A stretch of 64,000 bases of DNA from Deltaproteobacteria bacterium (GTDB lineage: Bacteria > Bdellovibrionota > Bdellovibrionia > Bdellovibrionales > JAMPXM01), in contig JAFLCB010000005.1 of assembly GCA_017302795.1 (NCBI GenBank), forward strand, positions 62,001-126,000. The letters run 5' to 3'. Shown here in pieces: positions 13,901 to 25,318 of this stretch. The stretch's first letter is position 1, and each line of letters begins with the position of its first letter. The translations under genes were made by a program, and so were the position numbers. A model generated the notes under the pieces. That model did not search any database and was not told where the DNA came from. It saw only the letters and a list, made by a program, of their open reading frames with translations.

Positions 13901-14282
13901 TTCGGCGGACTTTAACAACGACGGCAACGGCGATGTTGCGGTGCTCAACTCCACGGATGCAACGGTAAGCGTTCTTCGCGGTGTGGGCGATGGGTCCCTG
14001 ACTGTAAACAGTGATTTTTCCGCAGGGCTAACGCCGGTCGGACTTATCACTGGCGACTTCAATGGTGACACGCGAATCGACCTTGCCACTGGAAATGGTT
14101 CGAGTTTTGGATTTACGACTCTTAACGGCGCCGGCAACGGTCAGTTCAACGTCACCAATTCTTTCACAACGGATTACCCCGTGAACGGAATCGGGCTAGG
14201 AGATGTGAACGGCGATTTCACTTTAGACTTTATAATTCTTGATTCAGGTAACTCAAAGGCACGTACGTGGTTGGGACAATAG
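10998..14282 (+). CDS. FG-GAP/VCBS repeat surface lipoprotein
   Basis: The protein is 1094 residues from GTG 10998, which has GAGGAG eight nt upstream and gives a short signal peptide ending in the lipobox ISGC (Cys 24). An in-frame ATG at 10941 would put a leader hairpin inside the coding region. After two Ig-like domains (about 40-210) and a further beta domain comes a long run of about 13 FG-GAP/VCBS repeats. These have the calcium-loop pattern D-x-(N/D)-x-D-G-x-x-D-(L/I)-x-V, for example DFNRDGYLDLAI. The family folds as a calcium-binding beta-propeller, as in integrin alpha chains, and is usually extracellular. It lies 71 nt after the previous giant gene and overlaps the next one by 16 nt, so co-expression is likely. 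Confidence 0.9.
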   Translation: MLRSHRGTLKIAAALLLPIAISGCRAGGGVSSTPSQTPMVTVVDIPTIALPSSTPHYSNTDTLTISGMCMSGFQVALSGDASETQTCANSTYSFSVLKALDGLYSFQITQSGETGTTSAGAPLVWVKKTSVAPPTITSPTATPFASAQSTLSIVGGCETGATVTVSGDSAGSFMCASSLFAFSIPKLVDGDYNFVITQTDRAGNSATSNILWRKYGITVSPSNPSLVVATPQVLTISGGSGSYTVSVSTNNSGGSYTSGTRTYTTGTLAAVTDTLLVTDSLGATQSIAISTVAGAVDHLSLPLVNGDAQVKPVGQVLDEMLSVKVVDRYENGISNYQVYFQIVEGDGEIVGNPVKSTNAQGLATVSLRTGFANTKNEIFVSPLSGALPDLAATGRSVLTMAQTTTSNGKGTMGTTFTVGSGPTANWVGDLNQDGYRDLLVLNSSEPSIGILLGRGNGLFGNMSRITGVCNSPSGLTVASLNSTTDAFLDLALSCAGADAIVVYTGRGDGTFNTPATVISTAPNATLPLAITNGDFNRDGYLDLAIASIGGSVVATYSGNGAGAFSNERLFNVGLSPNSITTLDIDKDSYLDIAVTNAGDNTLSILNGDGAGMFDPQTVYGTGIGAISMGVADFDKNTWPDLAVAINGEDTVSVFLNDGTGLLDAPNGNVVGVGPISLSIFDYDSDGNDDIVTATNGDNSLSILPGLGNGAFGGAITQLTVINPAFVSVADSNGDNIKDLFVSGDGKVEMIPVFSAGKIGMLADVGATPADAILAHFDSDVYLDMAVANNGSNTITTFTGDGKGSFTFKETLATGLSPVALKKADFNHDGYADLVVANNSSSSVRVYRGKSDGTFEPHADFTTGSGPTGIAIQDYNHDGHDDLAVSASNANKVSILLGVGDGTFGSKVDYSTGSSPAGVTSIDLDGDMALDLITANNSSNDVSVLIGNGDGTFRSNLEYVAGNGPASIVSADFNNDGNGDVAVLNSTDATVSVLRGVGDGSLTVNSDFSAGLTPVGLITGDFNGDTRIDLATGNGSSFGFTTLNGAGNGQFNVTNSFTTDYPVNGIGLGDVNGDFTLDFIILDSGNSKARTWLGQ

Positions 14283-17200
14283 GGCAAAAAGAACTTCTGT
14301 CTCTGATAAAACGTGCGATCTGCGCGGCGGCGCTGCTTACTTCATTGCCAGGTTGCCTCGGCGGTGGTGGTGGTGGCTCCACTCAGCAAACCAGCTTAGG
14401 AAGTGTTGAGTTTATTGGAATCAGCGTTCAAATCTATGATGCTCTCACAGTTGAAATGCTTATTCAGGGTCGATTGCGACTTGCGGGCGCGACTGATCTC
14501 AATCAGATTTCAATTTATACAGATTCCAACTGTCTCATCGAAAAAGTGGGCGAAGGTATACATCAAGACTTTTTCGGAGCAGGAATTTCGGTTTCAATAC
14601 CAAGCACTTCGGTTACTGATCTTTACGTGTTGACGAACACTGAAGACGAATGTTTTTTCTTGCACGAATACGTTCCGCGGTTTGATGCTCCGCCCGGTCC
14701 AACTTTTAGTTCTTTTAGCCCAGTCTCACCTTCTCGTCTTACCTTCCAACCCTACATCTCTGGAAATGCGTCGACCACCACGGCGACCGTGAAATTCTTC
14801 AGCAACAGCCTCTGCACCTCTCAGGTAGGAACCGGCAGCGTTCAACAATTTCGCACGACTGGGATTCAATTAAGTTTGACTGCTGATTCCGATAATCAAG
14901 TTTACGCGACCGCCACTGACGCCTTTGGGAAAACGTCTGACTGCACACTCATGGCGAGTTTCCTCCACGATTCCACTGGTCCCGAGGTGCCGGTCTATAC
15001 CGCGGCCGTTCCAGTTTCTCCGTCCGGTGCATCAACGACCCCACTCATCATCGGGACCGTCGATATAGACTCGCAGCTAGTATCCATCTACACGGATGCG
15101 GCCTGCACGGTACTCAGCGGCTCTGGGACCTCGGCAGACTTTCGAACGACGGGAATTCAAGTGACGGCGGCGCAAAACTCTTCGACGTCTTACTACGGAA
15201 CTTCCACCGATCAGAATATGGTTGTGTCGGACTGTGCCTTCATGACGATTTATACCCATGACTCTGTCGCACCCACAGCGCCAACTTTATCGAGCACCGA
15301 TCCTACTTCACCCACGAGAACAACTCTTGTACCGAAAATTCGCGGGACCGTGTCTGCGGATGCCCAACTAGTTCGTCTCTTCAACAACTCGACATGCACA
15401 ACGATGTCCGGGGCGGGCACCAAGCTCACTTTTGAAGGAGCTGGAATTCCGACTGCGATATTACCAAACGAAAGTACGAACATTTATGCACAAGCGTTTG
15501 ACGCCGCTGGAAACAGCAGTGCGTGCACATTAATGACATCTTTTGTGCACGACACAATTGCTCCAGACCCGCCGGTTTTCGCAATGTCCACCCCCGCTTC
15601 CCCGAACAATCAATCGGTGACGCCACGTATTTCCGGAACCACTGATATTTCCGCAATAGATGTGAAAATCTATAATGACGATACCTGTTTGAATTTGATT
15701 GGGAGCGGAACTGTCGACGCCTTCGATGCGCCCGGAGTTCAAGTCACTGTAACCGGAAACACGACGACAACTTTGTACGGAACTTCCGCCGATGTGGCCG
15801 GTAACATTTCTCTTTGCTCGGCACTTTCGAACTACTCTCATTCGACGACTCCGGCTCCAGCGCCTGCTTTTTTTATCGCATCGCCAGTTTCACCGACTCG
15901 TGTCACGAATCGACCCTATATTGTTGGGACAGCTGCCAACACCGTCACGCGAGTCACCCTTTACGGCGATGCAGCTTGCACGGGCTCGCTCGGGACGGCA
16001 TCTCGATCATTATTTGTTACTTCGGGTATTCAAGCGACTGTAGCCTTGAATGCGCAAACAGGACTCTATGCGATTTCCGAAGACATTTACGGCAACGTCT
16101 CGGGATGCACATTTATGACAAACTACATTCACAACACGGTGCCGCCGTTAGATCCGATATTCACATCCGTGACACCACTTTCCCCAAACAACTCGTCGAC
16201 ATCGCCGGTCATTGTCGGCTCATTGACATTTGATCCAGGAAACATTTTGCAACCGAACGAAGTATCGCTATACGACGGTTTCCTCTGCCTAAATAGAATT
16301 GGCACTGGCACACCGACGGCTTTCCAAACAACCGGCTTGATCGCCTCTGCACCGGCGAACACCGCAACCAGTATTTATGCAAAAGTGTTTGATGCCGCAG
16401 GCAACACCACGGCGTGTACGTTTCTTACCGACTATGTACACGACGCACTCGTGCCGGGAAGGCCACTTCTTGGAGGCGCGACACCTGGGACGCCATCTTA
16501 CACTGCGGACGTCATACTTGCAGGAAACGTCGGCGCCACAACTGATTTCCTTCCGCCGACAAATCTCGTTATTTACTCCGACTCGGCTTGCGCTACTCAG
16601 ATGAAGGCCGATCCAGTCACGTTATTTACAAGTGGGACTTACCCTCTCGCAGTACCGAAGAATACAACTACTTCTTTGTATGGCGCGATCTTCAATGAGG
16701 TTGGTACTGCTTCACCCTGTACTCTGTTAGTGAACTATCGGCATTCCGACCTGGGCCCAGCGTCCTTGATGGCTAGTCAAGGTGCCGATGGGTCTGTGGC
16801 ACTGAACTGGTCGCCGGACAACACTGCAAGCCCAATCCCTACTTACGAAATTCGGCGAGCACTGCAAAGTGGCGGTCCCTACACCACGGTTTCCGAAGGA
16901 GTGAATGGTGCTACCTTCACGGACTTCAACGTCAGTAACGGACAAACTTACTATTACGTTGTTGCCGCACGCAACATCACTGGTGTTTCGAAGAATTCAA
17001 CCGAAGTCGCGCACACCGTCAGTGTCTCCGTTCCAGCGGGGATCATTGGTTTGTCCGCGGCACCTGGGCCTGCGCGGGTGACATTGAACTGGGTGGGCAC
17101 CAGTGAGAATATGACCTACACCCTTCGCCGCTCAACCAATCGCGGCGGACCGTACACGCAAATAGCTGCTGGCCTCACCTCAGCAACCTATAATGATACT

Positions 17201-20200
17201 TCAGTCACAAATGGAACGAGCTATTACTACGTCGTAACCGGAAAAAACCCTGCGGGCGTAAGTTCCGATTCCAACGAGGCGCAAGCGACTCCAATAGGAA
17301 TTCCGACGGCACCAACAAATCTTGCACTCACTCAGCTTCGCAGCAGTACGGCCTGCGGGGGAGCTCCAGGAGTCTTGCTAGCGTGGACTCCACCGCCTTA
17401 CTTCAGCAATTTCAGTGTTTACCGTGGAACGAGTTCCGCAGGCGGCACACCGATTTTCTCGACGACCTCGACGTCATGGGTGGATTGTAATCCAGTTAAT
17501 AACATCGGTGGCGGTGGACAGGTCGACTACAACTACTACTCGATTGTCGCTAACTGGGGACCATTGCAGTCCGGTGAATCAAACAAAGTCGTCTTCGCAA
17601 ATGACAGTGCAGGGACCATTCGCGTCGATCCAGGAAATGGTTTGATCAATGTGACATGGACCGCGGTGAACTTCGCCGTACGATATCATATCTATCGTTC
17701 GACGGTTTCAGATGGTCCTTACACGCTCCTCGACAACACGATAACGTCTACAAGCTACATTGATTCGTCTGTGGTAAACGGGCAAGCTTACTTCTACGTG
17801 CTCTATGCGGAATATCCAAATGACGTTGCACTCAGCTGGCGCACGGATGAACAGGGCGGAATCCCCGGAGCGATCCCTGGAAATCCTTCGAATCTCACCT
17901 TGGCAGTGAATTCCAGTCGACAGCCGATTTTAACTTGGACGGCGCCAGAGGCTTTCAACTTCTTCCGAATTTATCGAAGCGCGAATGCAGGCGGGCCATA
18001 TTTTTTAAGTGGTACGTCTAACTCAACCTCCTACCTCGATTCCTCCCCTAGCATAGGAATGAATTTCTACCGCGTGGTGCGTGTCTGGGGCACTTCCGAA
18101 TCCAGCCCTAGCAACACTGTTCAACTGCGCTATGGATACCCGATCACGGTCTCAAGCACACAAACTGAGACTCAGATTGATGTCTCCTGGTCTGTGGTTG
18201 CCGGCGCGCTCGAGTACGATGTTTTCCGTTCGAATTTTTCTGGAGGTCCGTACTCACTGATCGCGACCACTGCAACGACCAGCCACGCCGATCTCACGCC
18301 GGTCATTGACGAAGGTTACTTCTACGTTGTTCAAGCGAAATTTTCCGATCTAACCGCAGGGCAACTTTCCAACGAAGTTTCTGGCACACTTGCGAACTCA
18401 ACTATTCCAAATGCACTGACCGTACTCGGTACGACCCAATCAAGCGTGAACTTAAATTGGCCCAAATACAGCGGAGCAACCAGCTACAAAATTTATCGTG
18501 CGACAAATTCCGGCGGACCCTATTCACTTGTCGCTCAGCAAAGCGCGATTGGCCTCAATGTGACGGCACTTTCCGGCCTTAATGAGCACTTTTTCAGATA
18601 CTCGTTTGTCCGCGGCGGCATCGAGTCTGCCGCTTCAAATCCAATCTCAGCTTACACCTATGCTCCACCTTCCGCTCCAGTCGCCACGCCAGGAAACAAC
18701 TCAATCTCGCTGTCGTGGGGAATAATTGGCGGCGCCACTTCTTACAGCGTCGAACGCTCAACTGATTCGGTTGGCTTCTCGTCTTTGATCACGGGACTTG
18801 GGTCGCCAGCTTACACCGACAACACGGCGGTAAATGCCACGCTTTATTTCTACCGGGTCACCGCGGTGTTCCCGACAGAATCAAAAACTTCAGGAATCAG
18901 CACCGGCGTGACACCGGGTCTTGTTCCACGTGCGCCTAGCGGATTGGTTGTTACAAAAAATTTGACCGGAACCGATATCGAACTTAGCTGGGGTGCGTCT
19001 GCCGGAGTGTCGCTTTATCGAATTTACCAAGCCACGTCGAGCGGCGGCCCGTATACACAGGTTTCCCAAACATCGTCAGCGATTCAAAATCCAGTCGTCG
19101 GTTTAACAGCGGAGACGAAATATTTCTACGTCGTGCGCGCTTTCACGGGAAGTCTCCAATCGTCGGATTCCAACGAAGTTTCTGTTATTCCTTTGCTCCA
19201 ACCGAACGCACCTGTAGCGATTGTTAACGGTGTCGGTATCGATGTGACGTGGGGGGCGGTCGCAGGTGCGGCGACCTATGAGATTCAAAGATCTTCGGAT
19301 GGCGCCACTTTCACCACAATCGTAAGCGGCTTAGGCACTACAAGCTACACCGACATGACTGGTTCGATCGGCTCGACATATTCGTATCGCTATGTTCCTC
19401 AAGACGCTTCCGGAACTTCCTTCGCAACCTCTTTGGCGAGTGTCGGCGTTTCGCTTGGCTTGGCACCAGAAATTCCCAGAAACTTAATCGGTTTTGCGAC
19501 GAGCAATTCCTCGATTCGCTTAGACTGGATTCAAACTCCTAACTCTGTGGCCTACATACTCTCGCGGTCTGCCGTTTCTGGCGGGCCGTATGTTTCAGTG
19601 ACATCAACGACCGCTACGACCTATGTAGATTCAGGGCTCACCCCTGGAACCGTGTACTACTACACCGTCACGGCACAAGATCAGTCCGGCAACCTTTCTT
19701 CTGCTTCGAATGAAGTCGGTATTTCGCTTGCTGCAGTTCCAACCGGGCTCACCGCGACGGCAGTTCCAAACTACCAACAACTGTCGTGGAATCTGGTCGC
19801 TTCGGCAACTGGATATTCCGTGTTCCGATCTACAGCTGCCGGCGGCCCCTATGGAAAGATCGCTACCGGTGTAGCGGCAACTAGCTATCAAGACGCAGAT
19901 ATCAAGGACAGCGTGCTTTACTACTATGTTGTTGCGGCCGAATTCCCTACAGCTCTGTCGGTTTTTTCCAATGAGGCAAGCGCAACGGCAATTCGCCGTA
20001 TGAACATTCAAGTACCCGTCGAACTAGTCGATCAAAGCTTGTCGTCGGCAGATGTTCCGACAACCTTTGAACGCACTTTAACCACTTTAGACACTAGCCA
20101 TTATGACGGAACAGTTGTGTACGAGTTCGAAATCGTCGCAACCAACCAAGACACTTTCAGCCGTAACATCGAACTCGTAAATGCGAGTGGGGCCGTGGTG

Positions 20201-21190
20201 GCGACAATCATTGTACCTAGCGCGACGACAGATCGAACTCGATTGCGATCGGTGTTCACTCCGACGGCGGGGCCAAACCGATATCGAGTCCGCGTTGCAG
20301 GAACGACGTCTTCAGGTTTATTAGAGGTCGCCACGGGCCGAATTTTGATTACTCAAACTGCGGCAAGTAAAACCGCCATCTATGTACCACTGTTAAGTTC
20401 GGCAGCCGGGGCATACATTGGCGACGAATCAGGACCCGTAAGCCTCACGACTGCAACTACTTACCAGCCGTTGATGCATGCGAATATCTATAGACGTCAG
20501 GCAGCCAAGTACGCCCAATTAATTTCACAGAACCCCTGGCTCCTAGAAACACTCGTCAGCGCCTCTGGTACAGCGGTCGGAGCAGTTGCACTCTACAATA
20601 CGAACTTGGCGGCTCATGTCGACGATACGGAATCCATTTTTGCTGGTACCGGCGTTCAGATGTCGCTTGCGCCGTTTCAAGAAGGGGTTACCGGCTTCAG
20701 CAGTTCCAATGAGAATCACGAATTCCAAGTTTCGATTCGCTGCCTCGACAACTGTGATGATGGGCAGGTTCGAATTTATAAGGCGGGACTATGGGTGCGG
20801 TTAGAAAATCTCGACAAAGCGCAGGTCATCTTCCGAACTAGCTTGGGTGCGACACCGCCAGGATCAACCAACTATGACCATCAAAGAACGCTGATCAATC
20901 TCAGCTTGTTTTCAAATCCTGTTGCTTATTTTCAGGCCACAGCTACGATTCTCGCCGGAATGGATACCGGGTCGATTTTCCTCAATACAAATGGCGCAAA
21001 CGATTCAGGCCTCACGGGACTTTTACCAGTGGTAAACTCGACGCTGTCTGTGACTTCAAACACAAAGTCTTTGTTGCGATCGCCAGCGATCACTCTGAAC
21101 TCGGGACACCGATTCGTCCCGACCGCCGATCCAACAATCTCAATGCTGATGATGACAGACAGCGCGATCGTGATCGACGTCAGCTATTAA
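14267..21190 (+). CDS. Giant lipoprotein with Ig-like and fibronectin III repeats
   Basis: The protein is 2307 residues. The GTG start at 14267 lies inside the end of the previous gene (16-nt overlap) and has AAAGG seven nt upstream, suggesting translational coupling. The signal peptide ends in LPGC followed by a Gly run, typical of an exported lipoprotein. Residues about 140-830 hold repeats of about 90 residues with a Cys pair (pattern YxDxxC ... SxCTxMxxYxHD), which resemble bacterial Ig-like domains. Residues about 830-1925 hold about a dozen fibronectin III repeats with the signature (I/V)xLxWxxxxxATxYxVxRSxxxGGPY. The last 380 residues are beta-rich and not recognised. Likely a long surface stalk or adhesin; binding partner unknown. 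Confidence 0.9.
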   Translation: MVGTIGQKELLSLIKRAICAAALLTSLPGCLGGGGGGSTQQTSLGSVEFIGISVQIYDALTVEMLIQGRLRLAGATDLNQISIYTDSNCLIEKVGEGIHQDFFGAGISVSIPSTSVTDLYVLTNTEDECFFLHEYVPRFDAPPGPTFSSFSPVSPSRLTFQPYISGNASTTTATVKFFSNSLCTSQVGTGSVQQFRTTGIQLSLTADSDNQVYATATDAFGKTSDCTLMASFLHDSTGPEVPVYTAAVPVSPSGASTTPLIIGTVDIDSQLVSIYTDAACTVLSGSGTSADFRTTGIQVTAAQNSSTSYYGTSTDQNMVVSDCAFMTIYTHDSVAPTAPTLSSTDPTSPTRTTLVPKIRGTVSADAQLVRLFNNSTCTTMSGAGTKLTFEGAGIPTAILPNESTNIYAQAFDAAGNSSACTLMTSFVHDTIAPDPPVFAMSTPASPNNQSVTPRISGTTDISAIDVKIYNDDTCLNLIGSGTVDAFDAPGVQVTVTGNTTTTLYGTSADVAGNISLCSALSNYSHSTTPAPAPAFFIASPVSPTRVTNRPYIVGTAANTVTRVTLYGDAACTGSLGTASRSLFVTSGIQATVALNAQTGLYAISEDIYGNVSGCTFMTNYIHNTVPPLDPIFTSVTPLSPNNSSTSPVIVGSLTFDPGNILQPNEVSLYDGFLCLNRIGTGTPTAFQTTGLIASAPANTATSIYAKVFDAAGNTTACTFLTDYVHDALVPGRPLLGGATPGTPSYTADVILAGNVGATTDFLPPTNLVIYSDSACATQMKADPVTLFTSGTYPLAVPKNTTTSLYGAIFNEVGTASPCTLLVNYRHSDLGPASLMASQGADGSVALNWSPDNTASPIPTYEIRRALQSGGPYTTVSEGVNGATFTDFNVSNGQTYYYVVAARNITGVSKNSTEVAHTVSVSVPAGIIGLSAAPGPARVTLNWVGTSENMTYTLRRSTNRGGPYTQIAAGLTSATYNDTSVTNGTSYYYVVTGKNPAGVSSDSNEAQATPIGIPTAPTNLALTQLRSSTACGGAPGVLLAWTPPPYFSNFSVYRGTSSAGGTPIFSTTSTSWVDCNPVNNIGGGGQVDYNYYSIVANWGPLQSGESNKVVFANDSAGTIRVDPGNGLINVTWTAVNFAVRYHIYRSTVSDGPYTLLDNTITSTSYIDSSVVNGQAYFYVLYAEYPNDVALSWRTDEQGGIPGAIPGNPSNLTLAVNSSRQPILTWTAPEAFNFFRIYRSANAGGPYFLSGTSNSTSYLDSSPSIGMNFYRVVRVWGTSESSPSNTVQLRYGYPITVSSTQTETQIDVSWSVVAGALEYDVFRSNFSGGPYSLIATTATTSHADLTPVIDEGYFYVVQAKFSDLTAGQLSNEVSGTLANSTIPNALTVLGTTQSSVNLNWPKYSGATSYKIYRATNSGGPYSLVAQQSAIGLNVTALSGLNEHFFRYSFVRGGIESAASNPISAYTYAPPSAPVATPGNNSISLSWGIIGGATSYSVERSTDSVGFSSLITGLGSPAYTDNTAVNATLYFYRVTAVFPTESKTSGISTGVTPGLVPRAPSGLVVTKNLTGTDIELSWGASAGVSLYRIYQATSSGGPYTQVSQTSSAIQNPVVGLTAETKYFYVVRAFTGSLQSSDSNEVSVIPLLQPNAPVAIVNGVGIDVTWGAVAGAATYEIQRSSDGATFTTIVSGLGTTSYTDMTGSIGSTYSYRYVPQDASGTSFATSLASVGVSLGLAPEIPRNLIGFATSNSSIRLDWIQTPNSVAYILSRSAVSGGPYVSVTSTTATTYVDSGLTPGTVYYYTVTAQDQSGNLSSASNEVGISLAAVPTGLTATAVPNYQQLSWNLVASATGYSVFRSTAAGGPYGKIATGVAATSYQDADIKDSVLYYYVVAAEFPTALSVFSNEASATAIRRMNIQVPVELVDQSLSSADVPTTFERTLTTLDTSHYDGTVVYEFEIVATNQDTFSRNIELVNASGAVVATIIVPSATTDRTRLRSVFTPTAGPNRYRVRVAGTTSSGLLEVATGRILITQTAASKTAIYVPLLSSAAGAYIGDESGPVSLTTATTYQPLMHANIYRRQAAKYAQLISQNPWLLETLVSASGTAVGAVALYNTNLAAHVDDTESIFAGTGVQMSLAPFQEGVTGFSSSNENHEFQVSIRCLDNCDDGQVRIYKAGLWVRLENLDKAQVIFRTSLGATPPGSTNYDHQRTLINLSLFSNPVAYFQATATILAGMDTGSIFLNTNGANDSGLTGLLPVVNSTLSVTSNTKSLLRSPAITLNSGHRFVPTADPTISMLMMTDSAIVIDVSY

Positions 21191-21218: not shown

Positions 21219-21899
21219 CTAGAAGTTCATAAACAGCCCGCAACCGAGCGAATACTCTGACAGGCTTGACGCCAAGGTGGGCGATTGAAAAATCGTTGTC
21301 GAGTAAAGAAATTCGGGTCGTATCCCAATACCTGGAGCCAGTGGATAGTCTGCGCCCAACCGCAACCCAAAGTACAAACCTGATCCCTCGATGTTTGGAA
21401 CCAAATCGTTGTCGCGCCGAATGCTCGCCATCGCTGCGCCGATACCTACACCGGCGTAAGGCGTAAATCGTCGGATTAAAAGCAACGCCTCAGTCCCTTC
21501 CGATTCAGCTACCGAGGCGGCGGGACCCCAAAAATAGTAGCGCCCGGTCAGACCGGTGAAAGAAGAACCCATCGAAAACGGAGCGAAGTTAACACCGCGA
21601 GTGTGTTCCAAACCCAGACTAAAGTAATCGGACATCAGCCGGTCAGCGAAAAATGAAATCACCGCAGGCCCTTCGCTGCGTTCAACGATTGTCAGCTGCT
21701 CATTGACGGTCGCAACTTGTGTGACGCCCGATCCACCGAATCCAACTGATCCGCCGACCCGGTAGCGCCGAGAGTTCGAGCTTTGTGCGTCAAAGGAAAA
21801 TAGAAAAACCAGAAGCGCCATCAACACTGAAGTTCCGCATTGAAACTGCTTCTGGTTTCTAGACAGGCCGTTTAACTTACGCAGCCTTTTTGCCAACAT
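21219..21899 (-). CDS. Outer-membrane beta-barrel protein
   Basis: The protein is 226 residues from ATG 21899, preceded by a G-rich ribosome site. A longer in-frame start at 21983 would overlap the upstream gene by more than 100 nt. A basic N-terminus and a hydrophobic stretch (MALLVFLFSF) form a signal peptide. The rest alternates short glycine/aromatic beta strands and ends in Phe, the usual C-terminal signal of outer-membrane barrels; OmpW/OmpA-like size. It overlaps the end of the FliF-FliG-like gene by 23 nt, so it is the last gene of a three-gene operon. It may be the outer-membrane part of that assembly (inference). Confidence 0.8.
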   Translation of the reverse strand: MLAKRLRKLNGLSRNQKQFQCGTSVLMALLVFLFSFDAQSSNSRRYRVGGSVGFGGSGVTQVATVNEQLTIVERSEGPAVISFFADRLMSDYFSLGLEHTRGVNFAPFSMGSSFTGLTGRYYFWGPAASVAESEGTEALLLIRRFTPYAGVGIGAAMASIRRDNDLVPNIEGSGLYFGLRLGADYPLAPGIGIRPEFLYSTTIFQSPTLASSLSEYSLGCGLFMNF

Positions 21900-23748
21900 T
21901 CGCGTTGCCCCCAGCCTCAAGGCTACCATCGCCTTTTGCCGCTGGGAAGATTTCTTCCAAGACCAGTGCCTTTGACAAGACAAGGGTTCGAAGCCGCTTC
22001 GTCAAAGCTTCAATCCAAATACCTTTTTCTTTCGCCGAAAGTCGATCTGGTTTTGCAAATTCATCACTTACCATGGCGACCGTCATCTTTGGCGCGAGAT
22101 TCAAGACGCGCTCTTTGACATCCGGGCGCACTCGACAAAGGGCCAAGATTTCGTCGGTCGTCGCCTGGGACAAGAGAATCGAAAGAGGCTCATCTTCCCA
22201 TTCGGAAATAAAGGCCAGCGACGGTGTCGAGCGGCGGAACTCTTCGGCCGCTGGACCTTGCATCCCCGCAAGTAAAACAAGTTCTTCTGCGGGAGTCAGT
22301 GCCTCGACCAATTTGTTCAAAGTCATTTCGAGTGGGATCACATCTTCACGACTTTGCGGCTTGAATCGCGCCATCAAGCCTTGATCCAATTGCGAAAGTT
22401 CCTTAGTTGGGATTTCACTCATTCCGGCCGCCGCGATTAACAACTCTCTTTTCGCTTCAAGTGACATCGTACCCATAAATTTGGCACGCAGGTCTGGCGG
22501 CATGAAAAGCGAAACCACCGTGCGCATCTTCGGGTTCTGCTCCATCAAGACTTGGCTTACCATACCGACGTTGAAGCCGCCGAGGTACCCGAACGGTTGT
22601 TCGAGGGCTGCGGGACCAAGATTCATCACAGTCAATAAGTCCCAGTAGGACTTTTGTAATGCGTCTCGCTTCTCTGTTATCTCAACGCCAGACATTTTGG
22701 TGAAAGCGCGCGTGACGTCAGATACAGCATCGACAGGAATGGGCAATTTTCCTAGCTCCTTGCCTACAACTTCTGACAGAACGGCAACTTTCGCCCAGCC
22801 TAGGTCGCCCGTCTGACACCACGATCGCAACACGGCTTCCAAATGTTCCGAAATTTTCGGAAGGATTTCTAAAACACGAATCTTTAAGCTTTCTACTTCA
22901 GCAGTTGCCGCCGCGCGATCACGAGCGAGCTTTTCGTCAGCAAGACGCTGCTTTTCTTCTTCGCTGAGACCAGCTGCAACAGCGGCGGCGGGCGAATTAG
23001 CAGGTTGTGAGGCTGAAGAAGTATTTGCGGTTTCTGTGCCACCTGCAACGGTCGACTTTCGTGGCGTCAGTATTCCCCATAGCAAAACGCCTAGAATAAT
23101 TGCAGTGGCAAGTGCCAATTGACCAGCCAACGATTGAAACTGGCTCAAAAGGTCCCAAGTAGTTTTTGGCGGTGCAATTTCTTGAGCCTTGGGAAGCGGC
23201 ATCTTGATAACAGTCACAAGTCCCTTGCCGACTTTTCCGAATTCCGAGTTAAGCCGATCTTTCAACCACTTTTCGACCTCTGCTTTTACCTCGGGAGCAA
23301 GCGCTTCGCTCAAACCAACGTTGACTGCGACAGTTTTGATTTTGAATCCCTCTAAGAATGCCATCGCCACCTGACGCTCTTCGCCTGGTGGGGAATAGCT
23401 TTTCAGAAGCGCTTCTGGATCCAGCATGCCTAACGCGAGATCGGAAATTGGCTCCATCTCTCCTGAAGTCGGTGGAACAAGTGGGTTGTTGACCTTTTTA
23501 GGCACGGCCTGAAGATCAAGTTCCGCACTTATTGAAAACGTCGTCTTGTCGATCTTTGTCGCGAGTGTCTGCGTGAATCTTCGAGCCAAAAGGTCCTCGA
23601 GAAGTGCTTTTGCGCTCAACGCGTCGGGGGCCAAGGCTGTCGAAGAGACCGCGCCCGCTAGAAGAGGTGTTATCAACGACACAATGACAGCCATGGCTGC
23701 CAACGATCGAAGAACTTTTAGTTTTTGAATCCCACTTCGTAATTTCAT
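21877..23748 (-). CDS. Membrane-anchored FliF-FliG-like fusion protein
   Basis: The protein is 623 residues. ATG 23748 has GAGGG eight nt upstream; an in-frame TTG at 23763 is less likely. Topology: N-terminal membrane/signal segment (about 12-33), periplasmic part (34-210), second membrane segment (211-228), Ala/Ser linker, charged coiled coil (262-300), cytoplasmic helical region. The periplasmic part contains two blocks resembling the last ring-building domain of FliF: SAELDLQ (74-80), and the block around 138-185 with pattern VAVNVG...VTVIKMPLP. Residues 395-460 (EQNPKM, MPPDLRAKFM) resemble the FliG middle domain, and 475-590 resembles FliG-C. This reads as an MS-ring subunit fused to a rotor switch protein, outside any flagellar operon. 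Not verified by search; a merely helical-repeat resemblance is the alternative. Confidence 0.65.
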   Translation of the reverse strand: MKLRSGIQKLKVLRSLAAMAVIVSLITPLLAGAVSSTALAPDALSAKALLEDLLARRFTQTLATKIDKTTFSISAELDLQAVPKKVNNPLVPPTSGEMEPISDLALGMLDPEALLKSYSPPGEERQVAMAFLEGFKIKTVAVNVGLSEALAPEVKAEVEKWLKDRLNSEFGKVGKGLVTVIKMPLPKAQEIAPPKTTWDLLSQFQSLAGQLALATAIILGVLLWGILTPRKSTVAGGTETANTSSASQPANSPAAAVAAGLSEEEKQRLADEKLARDRAAATAEVESLKIRVLEILPKISEHLEAVLRSWCQTGDLGWAKVAVLSEVVGKELGKLPIPVDAVSDVTRAFTKMSGVEITEKRDALQKSYWDLLTVMNLGPAALEQPFGYLGGFNVGMVSQVLMEQNPKMRTVVSLFMPPDLRAKFMGTMSLEAKRELLIAAAGMSEIPTKELSQLDQGLMARFKPQSREDVIPLEMTLNKLVEALTPAEELVLLAGMQGPAAEEFRRSTPSLAFISEWEDEPLSILLSQATTDEILALCRVRPDVKERVLNLAPKMTVAMVSDEFAKPDRLSAKEKGIWIEALTKRLRTLVLSKALVLEEIFPAAKGDGSLEAGGNANVGKKAA

Positions 23749-23773
23749 CCTTGAAACCCTCAAATCCTAATAC

Positions 23774-24430
23774 CTAGGGACCTCGGCCAGCTGGTGAAGT
23801 CACTGCTGCTGGATCTCTTCCACTCTGCATTGCCTTCACCTTTGCAACCATCTTCACGGCATCTTCCATCTGTGGATCGGCCGCAAGAGCTTGCTCGTAG
23901 AACTTTAAACTTTCAGAAAAGTTCTTTTGCGCAAAGTAAATCGAAGCTTTCATTGAAAGCGCTCGCGCGAAGCCTGGAAAGTCGGCAAGAATTTTGTCGA
24001 CTTCAATCAGCGCTCGCTCATATTGCGTGGACAGCGCAAACTTTTGCGCCAAGAACAGCCGATCGATAACAGATTTCGCGAACCGCTCTTCCTTTGGCGT
24101 CGCCCCCTGCTTGAGTGGCACTGTCAGTTCGGTCACTAGTGTGCCGAATTGGGCAGCAGGCAGAAGAAATGTCTGCGTGACGTGCCCGGACTTTTCCACA
24201 CCAACCGTAATGAACTCCCCTGAAACCATGTCTTCACCCATTTTCTCACGGATGTCTGACATCGGCATTTCCAGCGGAGTTTTCCCTACGAGCTTCTTAT
24301 CGCCTGTTTTTGGATTAACGAAAAAGACGTCAGCCTCAATGGGTTCGCTCTGCACCTTAAAAAGGTGTGTGCATCCGCTTAGACTGACGACCATTCCGAT
24401 CCATAGAATGAGTGTTTTCATCTGAGTCAT
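23774..24430 (-). CDS. PEGA-like/TPR lipoprotein
   Basis: The protein is 218 residues from ATG 24430, preceded by AGGT. The signal peptide ends in the lipobox LSGC (Cys 20). Residues 25-110 resemble a PEGA-type beta domain (VQSEPIEADVFF, then GKTPLEM). Residues 120-200 form two or three TPR-like helical pairs (YERALIEVDKILADFPGFARAL; the next starts YFAQKNFSESLKFYEQAL). PEGA/TPR lipoproteins often bind peptidoglycan or partner proteins in envelope machines. It is the first gene of the operon, 25 nt before the FliF-FliG-like gene, so it may be that protein's periplasmic or outer-membrane partner (inference). Confidence 0.8.
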   Translation of the reverse strand: MTQMKTLILWIGMVVSLSGCTHLFKVQSEPIEADVFFVNPKTGDKKLVGKTPLEMPMSDIREKMGEDMVSGEFITVGVEKSGHVTQTFLLPAAQFGTLVTELTVPLKQGATPKEERFAKSVIDRLFLAQKFALSTQYERALIEVDKILADFPGFARALSMKASIYFAQKNFSESLKFYEQALAADPQMEDAVKMVAKVKAMQSGRDPAAVTSPAGRGP

Positions 24431-24473
24431 TTATCGACCTAGTTCGAGACATTCTTGAGACCTAATATTTATT

Positions 24474-24504
24474 ACGACTTTGGTCGTGCTGGGCCTGCCC
24501 AAGC
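24474..24504. promoter_or_regulatory. Two adjacent inverted repeats in a divergent promoter region
   Basis: ACGAC-TTTG-GTCGT (24474-24487) and TGGGC-CT-GCCCA (24490-24501, extendable by two pairs) sit side by side between the divergent starts of the PEGA/TPR lipoprotein gene (24430) and the FKBP gene (24563). They may be operators for one or both genes, or hairpins in the leader. No regulator was identified. Confidence 0.35.
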
Positions 24505-24562
24505 CTTGCGACTTCGCACTACAATTCAAGGCAATGTCCATCCAACAGTCGAGGTTTGCAAA

Positions 24563-25276
24563 ATGCGTCTGCACTTCTTAATTTTTTTTACTGCGGCCAC
24601 TTTTCTTGTTTCAGCTGGATGTCAACGACAACCAGATCTCGCGGACGCGAATAATCAAACGAGCTACGCCCTTGGCCAGCAAGTTGGCGCAACCTTGGTT
24701 CGCCAAGAAATCAAGATCGACGAACCTTCATTTCTACTCGGGCTTCGCGATGCACTTTCCAAAACCCCTTCGAAACTAGACGACAAAACAATCGCCGAAG
24801 CTTCAATGCGCGCTCAACAGCAAGCTATGAAAAAACAAGCCGAGCTTCAGGCGAAAGCGGGAGAGTTTCTTACGGCCAGCGAAGCCTATTTGGCCGAGAA
24901 CAAAAAGAAGTCAGAAGTGAAGACGACGGCATCAGGACTCCAGTACGAAATCGTAACGATGGGAAAAGGCGCAAAGCCGAAAGACGACCAAATGGTCGAA
25001 GTCCATTACGTAGGTAAGCTTGTCGACGGTACCGTCTTTGACTCATCCATCGAGCGGAAACGGACCGCGACCTTTAATATCAACCAAGTAGTGCCCGGAT
25101 GGACGGAAGCGCTAAAGCTTATGCCCACCGGTTCAAAGTGGATCGTGACGATTCCGCCTGGACTTGGCTACGGCGCCCCTGGTGCGCCGCCACGTATTCC
25201 ACCAAATAGTGTCCTCATTTTCGAAATCGAGTTGATCTCGGTGTCGAACGCGCCGACGCCTCCCAAGAATCCTTGA
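24563..25276 (+). CDS. FKBP-type peptidyl-prolyl isomerase lipoprotein (Mip/FkpA-like)
   Basis: The protein is 237 residues from ATG 24563, with GAGG eight nt upstream. The signal peptide ends in VSAGC (Cys 20), so it is probably anchored in the outer membrane or periplasm. Residues 30-115 match the FKBP N-terminal dimerisation domain (SYALGQQVGA and a long charged helix). Residues 125-230 are the FKBP catalytic domain (VEVHYVGKLVDGTVFDSS, VVPGWTEAL, PPGLGYG, IPPNSVLIFEIELI). It speeds proline isomerisation during folding of exported proteins, useful given the many exported proteins nearby. It ends 32 nt before nadA, with a strong hairpin between them. Confidence 0.93.
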   Translation: MRLHFLIFFTAATFLVSAGCQRQPDLADANNQTSYALGQQVGATLVRQEIKIDEPSFLLGLRDALSKTPSKLDDKTIAEASMRAQQQAMKKQAELQAKAGEFLTASEAYLAENKKKSEVKTTASGLQYEIVTMGKGAKPKDDQMVEVHYVGKLVDGTVFDSSIERKRTATFNINQVVPGWTEALKLMPTGSKWIVTIPPGLGYGAPGAPPRIPPNSVLIFEIELISVSNAPTPPKNP

Positions 25277-25280
25277 CCGT

Positions 25281-25318
25281 CGCTAGCTAGCCGCCGGATA
25301 AACGGCGGATGGCTAGCG
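25281..25318 (+). promoter_or_regulatory. Hairpin enclosing the nadA start codon
   Basis: Arms 25281-25296 and 25303-25318 pair over 16 positions with one mismatch and one G-U pair, around a six-nt loop. The nadA ATG (25309-25311) lies in the 3' arm, and the only G-rich stretch that could act as a ribosome site (25304-25308) is paired too. The hairpin begins five nt after the FKBP stop. No T-run follows, so it is not a usual terminator. The likely effect is to make nadA translation depend on ribosomes arriving from the FKBP gene. Confidence 0.65.

Follow-up and report, generated by a model that had tools for sequence, protein, structure and literature searches.

Proteins that join FliF and FliG are known both from nature and from the laboratory. 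In the Chlamydiaceae, a natural FliF-FliG fusion keeps the SctJ-like part of FliF, lacks the RBM3 domain, and has the middle-domain (M)-like part of FliG only (PMC4768692). Mutant FliF-FliG fusions of Salmonella still assemble and rotate (PMC4768692), and a laboratory fusion from Vibrio (8z4d) forms an S-ring (PMC11481574). Ion-driven units of the MotAB class also work outside flagella, as in AglRQS-Glt gliding, GldLM-T9SS, TolQR-Pal, ExbBD-TonB and ZorAB, whereas a FliG-type rotor is not reported for these systems in the literature examined. Here we analyse a fusion gene in a 64,000-nucleotide stretch of a genome of the Bdellovibrionota (assembly GCA_017302795.1, contig JAFLCB010000005.1, positions 62,001 to 126,000), which is called the window below. 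A sequence-only reading of the window had described the gene product as a FliF-FliG-like fusion in an envelope operon. It is right that laboratory fusions work in flagella, but a natural fusion is not unprecedented, as the Chlamydiaceae protein shows.

The fusion shares with the Chlamydiaceae protein its natural origin and its occurrence in organisms without flagella. In contrast, the present protein has RBM3 as its only FliF-like domain, has FliG M-like and C-terminal (C)-like regions, and is accompanied by a MotA-MotB pair and by genes for a lipoprotein and an outer-membrane protein (OMP). The laboratory fusions show that both proteins can be joined; however, they are engineered or mutant proteins with nearly complete FliF and FliG inside the flagellum. 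Compared with flagellar FliF, the fusion has the same RBM3 fold, the same order of helices and strands, the same insertion point between strands 1 and 2, and then a transmembrane (TM) helix followed by the FliG part. It differs from FliF in lacking RBM1 and RBM2, in having a signal peptide in place of the first TM helix and an insert of ~50 residues in place of the β-collar, and in giving no YscJ_FliF_C match. Compared with flagellar FliG, the M and C domains (in a paralogous family the N domain too), the acidic torque pair and the association with MotAB are the same. The differences are that the FliG part is joined to a membrane protein, that the EHPQ motif and the R297-type residue are lost, that no FliM/FliN gene is nearby, and that the fusion persists without a flagellum.

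Homology of the fusion to FliG and likeness to FliF

The window protein searched alone against Pfam matches FliG_M (2.9e-4) and FliG_C (0.011), both below the cut-offs, and phmmer against PDB finds FliG only (3ajc, 1.4e-4). The profile of 26 homologues (family 1) matches FliG more strongly, the top PDB match being 1lkv with an E of 4.2e-12, and all 13 of its PDB matches are FliG or a FliF-FliG construct. The same profile picks up the window genome's own flagellar FliG. At E up to 0.1, Pfam FliG_C is found in 17 and FliG_M in 11 of the 26 members. A paralogous family (family 2) matches 1lkv with an E of 7e-28 and the Pfam models FliG_C (4.5e-12), FliG_M (2.1e-8) and FliG_N (1.6e-7), and the alignment of both families covers 530 columns (99.4%, E 1e-21). 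The profile searches thus firmly support homology of the C-terminal half of the fusion to the M and C domains of FliG, and the cytoplasmic part, read earlier as FliG-like, is identified as a FliG homologue.

The 26 family-1 members were aligned to 20 true FliGs for a comparison of residues. In Escherichia coli, MotA R90 pairs with D288-D289 of FliG (PMC12505986). The D288 position is acidic in all 26 members and the D289 position in 24, and a basic residue is present at the K264 position in 18. The FliM-binding EHPQ motif is kept in none of the 26, compared with 20 of 20 true FliGs. The EQNPKM stretch, pointed out earlier as a FliG pattern, does align with EHPQ, but the motif itself is not kept. 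As the acidic pair is retained, the basic residues are partly retained and EHPQ is lost, the stator face is partly kept and the switch-binding motif gone. The window genome contains a further FliG_C-like protein of ~257 aa (G000:C2:19018-19332, locus L002, minus strand; Pfam FliG_C 1.3e-8). It has no evident membrane part and a coiled-coil-like tail, and is distinct from the flagellar FliG.

When the full family-1 profile is compared with FliF by hhalign, the match is weak (3%), and domain trimming and shuffle controls were needed. In the profile-profile alignments, the first block of family 1 falls on RBM3a and the last block of family 2 on RBM3b, each at the expected place; the latter block holds a GDSVTV stretch resembling that of FliF. 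The combined periplasmic profile scores 33.4 against FliF. When the columns of the FliF profile were shuffled (200 times), the scores averaged 13.0 and reached 20.5 at most, and 200 unrelated neighbour proteins gave no more than 21.7. The AlphaFold2 model of residues 40-205 shows the order α-β-[insert]-β-α-β. According to Foldseek (350,542 PDB chains), a FliF model is the first match of the periplasmic model (5.4e-4). After VIA re-alignment, ranks 1-15 are all FliF RBM3 with Z of 9.0-10.3, most of them over ~100 residues at 2.4-3.7 Å. As the structural alignment spans FliF 228-438, the insert of the fusion falls at the place of the FliF β-collar. The best unrelated family was Ohr/OsmC (Z 8.6, against 10.3 for FliF); it has no sequence support and was rejected.

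There is one periplasmic domain of ~165 aa after the signal peptide, and no RBM1-RBM2 (SctJ-like) part, N-terminal TM helix or YscJ_FliF match is found in any member. According to the model, the FliF-like part of the fusion is RBM3 alone. The two periplasmic blocks, noticed earlier as resembling the last ring-building domain of FliF, correspond to the two halves of this domain in both the profile alignment and the model. The in silico fold of the periplasmic part is that of FliF RBM3 and does not contradict the earlier reading.

The MotA-MotB pair and the flagellum

Fusions were counted as 60 distinct genes across the phylum (62 rows were listed, L197/L198 repeating L214/L215), three of which were assigned by position and weak profile matches. 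Beyond the lipoprotein, fusion and OMP genes, the conserved genes that come next in related loci encode MotA (MotA_ExbB 3e-22) and MotB (MotB_plug 2e-15, OmpA 4e-16). These MotB proteins have plug and OmpA domains as in flagellar MotB. Both genes lie within 8 kb of the fusion in 39 of the 60 loci, many of which are on short contigs, and the linkage expected by chance is a few percent (roughly 2-8 MotA-like genes per ~3.5 Mb genome). The linked stators that the sequence-only reading had proposed to look for are thus strongly in evidence; most relatives have them at the fusion locus, and the window genome has its pair on another contig. Among defence-system models (PADLOC), MotB matches those of ZorB only (1.4e-14); this assignment was rejected, the match reflecting shared MotB ancestry.

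In the MotA tree, the linked copies group according to the type of fusion, and the clades so formed also take in the unlinked copies. The MotA of the window genome is sister to the fusion-linked copy of the sister genome. The distances of the fusion and of MotA in 26 genomes are correlated with r of 0.70 (maximum of 0.23 in 1000 permutations), to which shared species history contributes. G331 and G339 show similar cross-class placement in both trees. These placements and the clades by fusion type suggest that a dedicated stator was mostly inherited with the fusion. Between nadA and an FKBP gene, the sister genome has motA-motB (L003:2962-4461), and the window (24455-25309) has only ~33 bp. This gap and the position of the pair on another contig suggest that motA-motB moved or was replaced in the window genome.

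Genome G004, which we take to be Bdellovibrio bacteriovorus HD100, has three MotA-type genes at 128, 2919 and 3172 kb. The middle MotA-MotB pair is located within ~4 kb of a family-2 fusion (locus L160). The locus tags Bd3021 and Bd3254 are those of MotA2 and MotA3 (PMC11323537). As the order and rough spacing of the genes fit the tags of MotA1, MotA2 and MotA3, the middle pair is probably motAB2, and the paralogous fusion of HD100 probably adjoins it. MotAB2 has been treated as a flagellar stator (PMC11323537). In the literature search, only this paper mentions the Bd3021 stator tag, and none mentions the tags expected for its neighbours. The defects of motA3 or fliL (bd1076) in HD100 are not made good by other copies (PMC11323537), and a separate job for MotAB2 would fit this result.

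The class of the window genome comprises 144 genomes, of which 119 have FliF and 123 have FlhA. In two genomes, G120 (97% complete) and G122 (99%), the fusion is retained at full length together with a MotA-MotB pair from its stator clade, and profile searches found there no FliF, FlhA or FliM/FliN and no flagellar FliG match. The aflagellate evidence consists of these two cases, both small multi-contig assemblies. As the fusion persists in genomes without a flagellum, the dedicated non-flagellar machine suspected earlier is supported.

A possible envelope machine and alternative explanations

These results lead us to consider it likely that the fusion is the ring or rotor subunit of a small ion-driven envelope machine, similar to the core of the flagellar motor and operating outside the flagellum. 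The RBM3 fold, the FliG profile and the MotA/B linkage all support the earlier interpretation as a reduced ring machine spanning the envelope. With slightly better than even chances, we further propose an undescribed class of rotary machine, widespread in Bdellovibrionota, in which the dedicated MotAB turns a fused FliF-FliG ring that is linked to a lipoprotein and a barrel of the outer membrane. The machine would lack an export gate, a rod and a filament. In this proposal, MotAB2 of HD100 would be the stator of the machine, instead of or besides a flagellar one. The literature search, with most subscription journals and preprints outside its coverage, found no description of a non-flagellar FliF-FliG-MotAB module.

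The analysis supports the first steps. The N-terminus of the fusion is secreted, and a single RBM3 ring-building domain lies in the periplasm. The protein crosses the inner membrane once, with the FliG-like region in the cytoplasm, and it belongs with the dedicated MotA-MotB stator and the PEGA/TPR lipoprotein. We infer that a ring may then form from RBM3 oligomers. Driven by ion flow, MotAB would push the FliG-type torque helix via the retained acidic pair, and the ring would turn without a FliM/FliN switch. The periplasmic ring may transmit the motion to the lipoprotein and the barrel, perhaps also to the giant fibronectin-like surface proteins, and the output may serve adhesion, gliding, prey contact or other work at the cell surface.

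Several observations weigh against this machine, whose ring formation, rotation, partner interactions and output are what we infer. The basic torque residues are partly kept, the R281 position being basic in 14 and the R297 position in 2 of the 26 family-1 members. The Pfam FliF models match no member of the fusion families, and YscJ_FliF_C (PF08345) is above its cut-off in true FliF only; the RBM3 likeness was therefore tested by profile-profile alignment and a structure model. The periplasmic model was obtained from two sequences and has a mean pLDDT (confidence score) of 64.7, with 70-84 in the core. The full-length two-sequence model is poor (pLDDT 43.5), and its Foldseek list, with a FliF model at rank 1, was not relied on. 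The fusion has no match in NCBIfam. The MotA-MotB pair of the window genome is unlinked (contig C2, 318930 onwards, locus L165), and the MotA of G000/G083 groups otherwise than in the fusion tree, which is one clear discrepancy. The stator pair may thus have been swapped there. Each motAB pair of B. bacteriovorus reportedly contributes to swimming (Morehouse 2011). A flagellar role for the fusion-linked stator is allowed by this, and caution is needed.

Such a role is central to an explanation that we regard as unlikely, in which the fusion is a flagellar motor accessory that would hold alternative MotAB stators in store or in position, as an additional ring or a docking platform. Most fusion-bearing genomes also have FliF and FlhA, and the MotAB pairs of Bdellovibrio are regarded as stators of the flagellum (PMC11323537). 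However, G120 and G122 keep the fusion and stator without FliF, FlhA and FliM/FliN, the fusion genes lie outside flagellar clusters, EHPQ is lost, and the loss of MotA3 or FliL in HD100 is not rescued by other copies (PMC11323537). An equally improbable explanation is a static scaffold energised by the stator in the style of TolQR-Pal or ExbBD-TonB. The FliG-like region would dock MotAB, and the force would serve outer-membrane tethering or lipoprotein/OMP dynamics with no turning ring. This scaffold would suit a short module that encodes a lipoprotein, an OMP and a MotB carrying an OmpA domain, and it is also consistent with the partial loss of the basic torque residues and with the resemblance of FliG domains to MgtE_N, a non-rotary fold; but the ring-building RBM3 and the stator-facing acidic pair are retained. 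We consider it very improbable that the fusion belongs to an apparatus of the type III secretion kind, which has been suggested for the natural fusion of Chlamydia, an aflagellate bacterium that has an injectisome (PMC4768692). No export-gate gene (FlhA/SctV family, PF00771) was found in G120 or G122, and the fusion has RBM3, which is absent in the Chlamydia protein, without the SctJ part.

If the fusion and MotAB form a stand-alone motor, they would show to what extent a rotary motor can be pared down, and may represent an intermediate in the assembly or dismantling of the flagellum in evolution. The force generator of Bdellovibrio surface motility is listed as open by a 2026 review (PMC13104615), and such a motor would be a candidate for it. 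It would also change the reading of the HD100 experiments on three motAB pairs, one of which is apparently located in a fusion locus.

Gene layout, neighbours and distribution

The features of the locus are listed in Table 1. The open reading frame (ORF) of the fusion is real, and full-length homologues occur in dozens of species. The homologues have in common a signal peptide, a two-block periplasmic domain, one TM helix, a charged linker that varies, and a C-terminal half that is helical. Two membrane segments had been assigned earlier. The inner one stands, but the N-terminal one is more likely a cleavable signal peptide than a membrane anchor, because the stretch ends with AFA/AQ-type sites in most homologues; the protein would hence have one TM helix.

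Table 1. Features of the fusion locus, in positions of the window
Feature	Position	Strand	Basis or remark
Fusion ORF, FliF-RBM3-like domain, TM helix and FliG-like region	21877..23763	-	628 aa from TTG, 623 aa from first ATG
Probable signal peptide, residues 1 to ~40	23644..23763	-	Hydropathy peak 14-45; AFA/AQ-type cleavage sites in homologues
Predicted RBM3 first half, residues 45-85, helix and strand	23509..23631	-	Match to FliF RBM3a
Short insert at FliF β-collar place, residues 86-138, two short helices, partly low confidence	23350..23508	-	Model
Predicted RBM3 second half, residues 139-190, strand-helix-strand	23194..23349	-	Match to FliF RBM3b
Single TM helix, about residues 209-235	23059..23139	-	Hydropathy
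Helical linker with charged residues, residues 265-305, probably a coiled coil	22849..22971	-	Sequence; helix in low-confidence model
FliG middle-domain-like, residues 400-470, EHPQ motif not kept	22354..22566	-	Profile matches, alignment
FliG C-domain-like, residues 490-600, D567-E568 at E. coli D288/D289 positions	21964..22296	-	Profile matches, alignment
PEGA/TPR lipoprotein gene, 218 aa, directly upstream of fusion	23774..24430	-	LSGC lipobox; TPR by Pfam; PEGA-like N-part
Outer-membrane β-barrel gene (ORF limits), conserved neighbour downstream of fusion	21219..21983	-	Pfam OMP_b-brl 1.8e-6
Giant fibronectin-type-III-repeat protein, 2307 aa, convergent to fusion	14267..21190	+	Family adjoins fusion in ~14 loci; possible surface partner

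The gene order lipoprotein, fusion, barrel given by the sequence-only reading is confirmed by the lipobox and TPR upstream and the Pfam match downstream. The true start of the barrel gene is probably near 21821, past the fusion stop. No flagellar genes are seen near the fusion in the window, as had been stated. Across the phylum, the PEGA/TPR lipoprotein gene lies within 3 kb of the fusion in 54 of the 60 loci, and the two mostly overlap or touch.

The fusions form at least four divergent groups, namely family 1, family 2, proteins of 618-726 aa, and proteins of 749-829 aa with FliG_M matches down to 8e-13. The family-1 fusions of G331, G339 and G351, which belong to other classes, nest inside the window genome's class in the fusion tree. 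This nesting suggests horizontal transfer of the module. A divergent fusion relative of 564 aa in G027 (L064:9711-11405) has no linked MotAB or PEGA/TPR lipoprotein gene. In family-2 loci (L162:11462-13023), two extra genes are located between those for the lipoprotein and the fusion; one encodes an OMP barrel, and the product of the other has ~325 aa, is hydrophobic over an N-terminal stretch and matches no Pfam family.

A membrane protein that resembles HAMP/SpoIIE phosphatases by eye is encoded beside fusions of several groups in more than 10 loci (for example L160:7672-9423, L162:7984-9735 and L199:10525-12339). It is a possible regulator of the module. In the window, positions 25-21190 contain four giant plus-strand genes in a row, of 1651, 1930, 1113 and 2307 aa, with Ig-like, fn3, NHL and FG-GAP repeats. 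The family of the last gene recurs next to fusion loci, and these fibronectin/Ig-like neighbours make a surface role of the module plausible.

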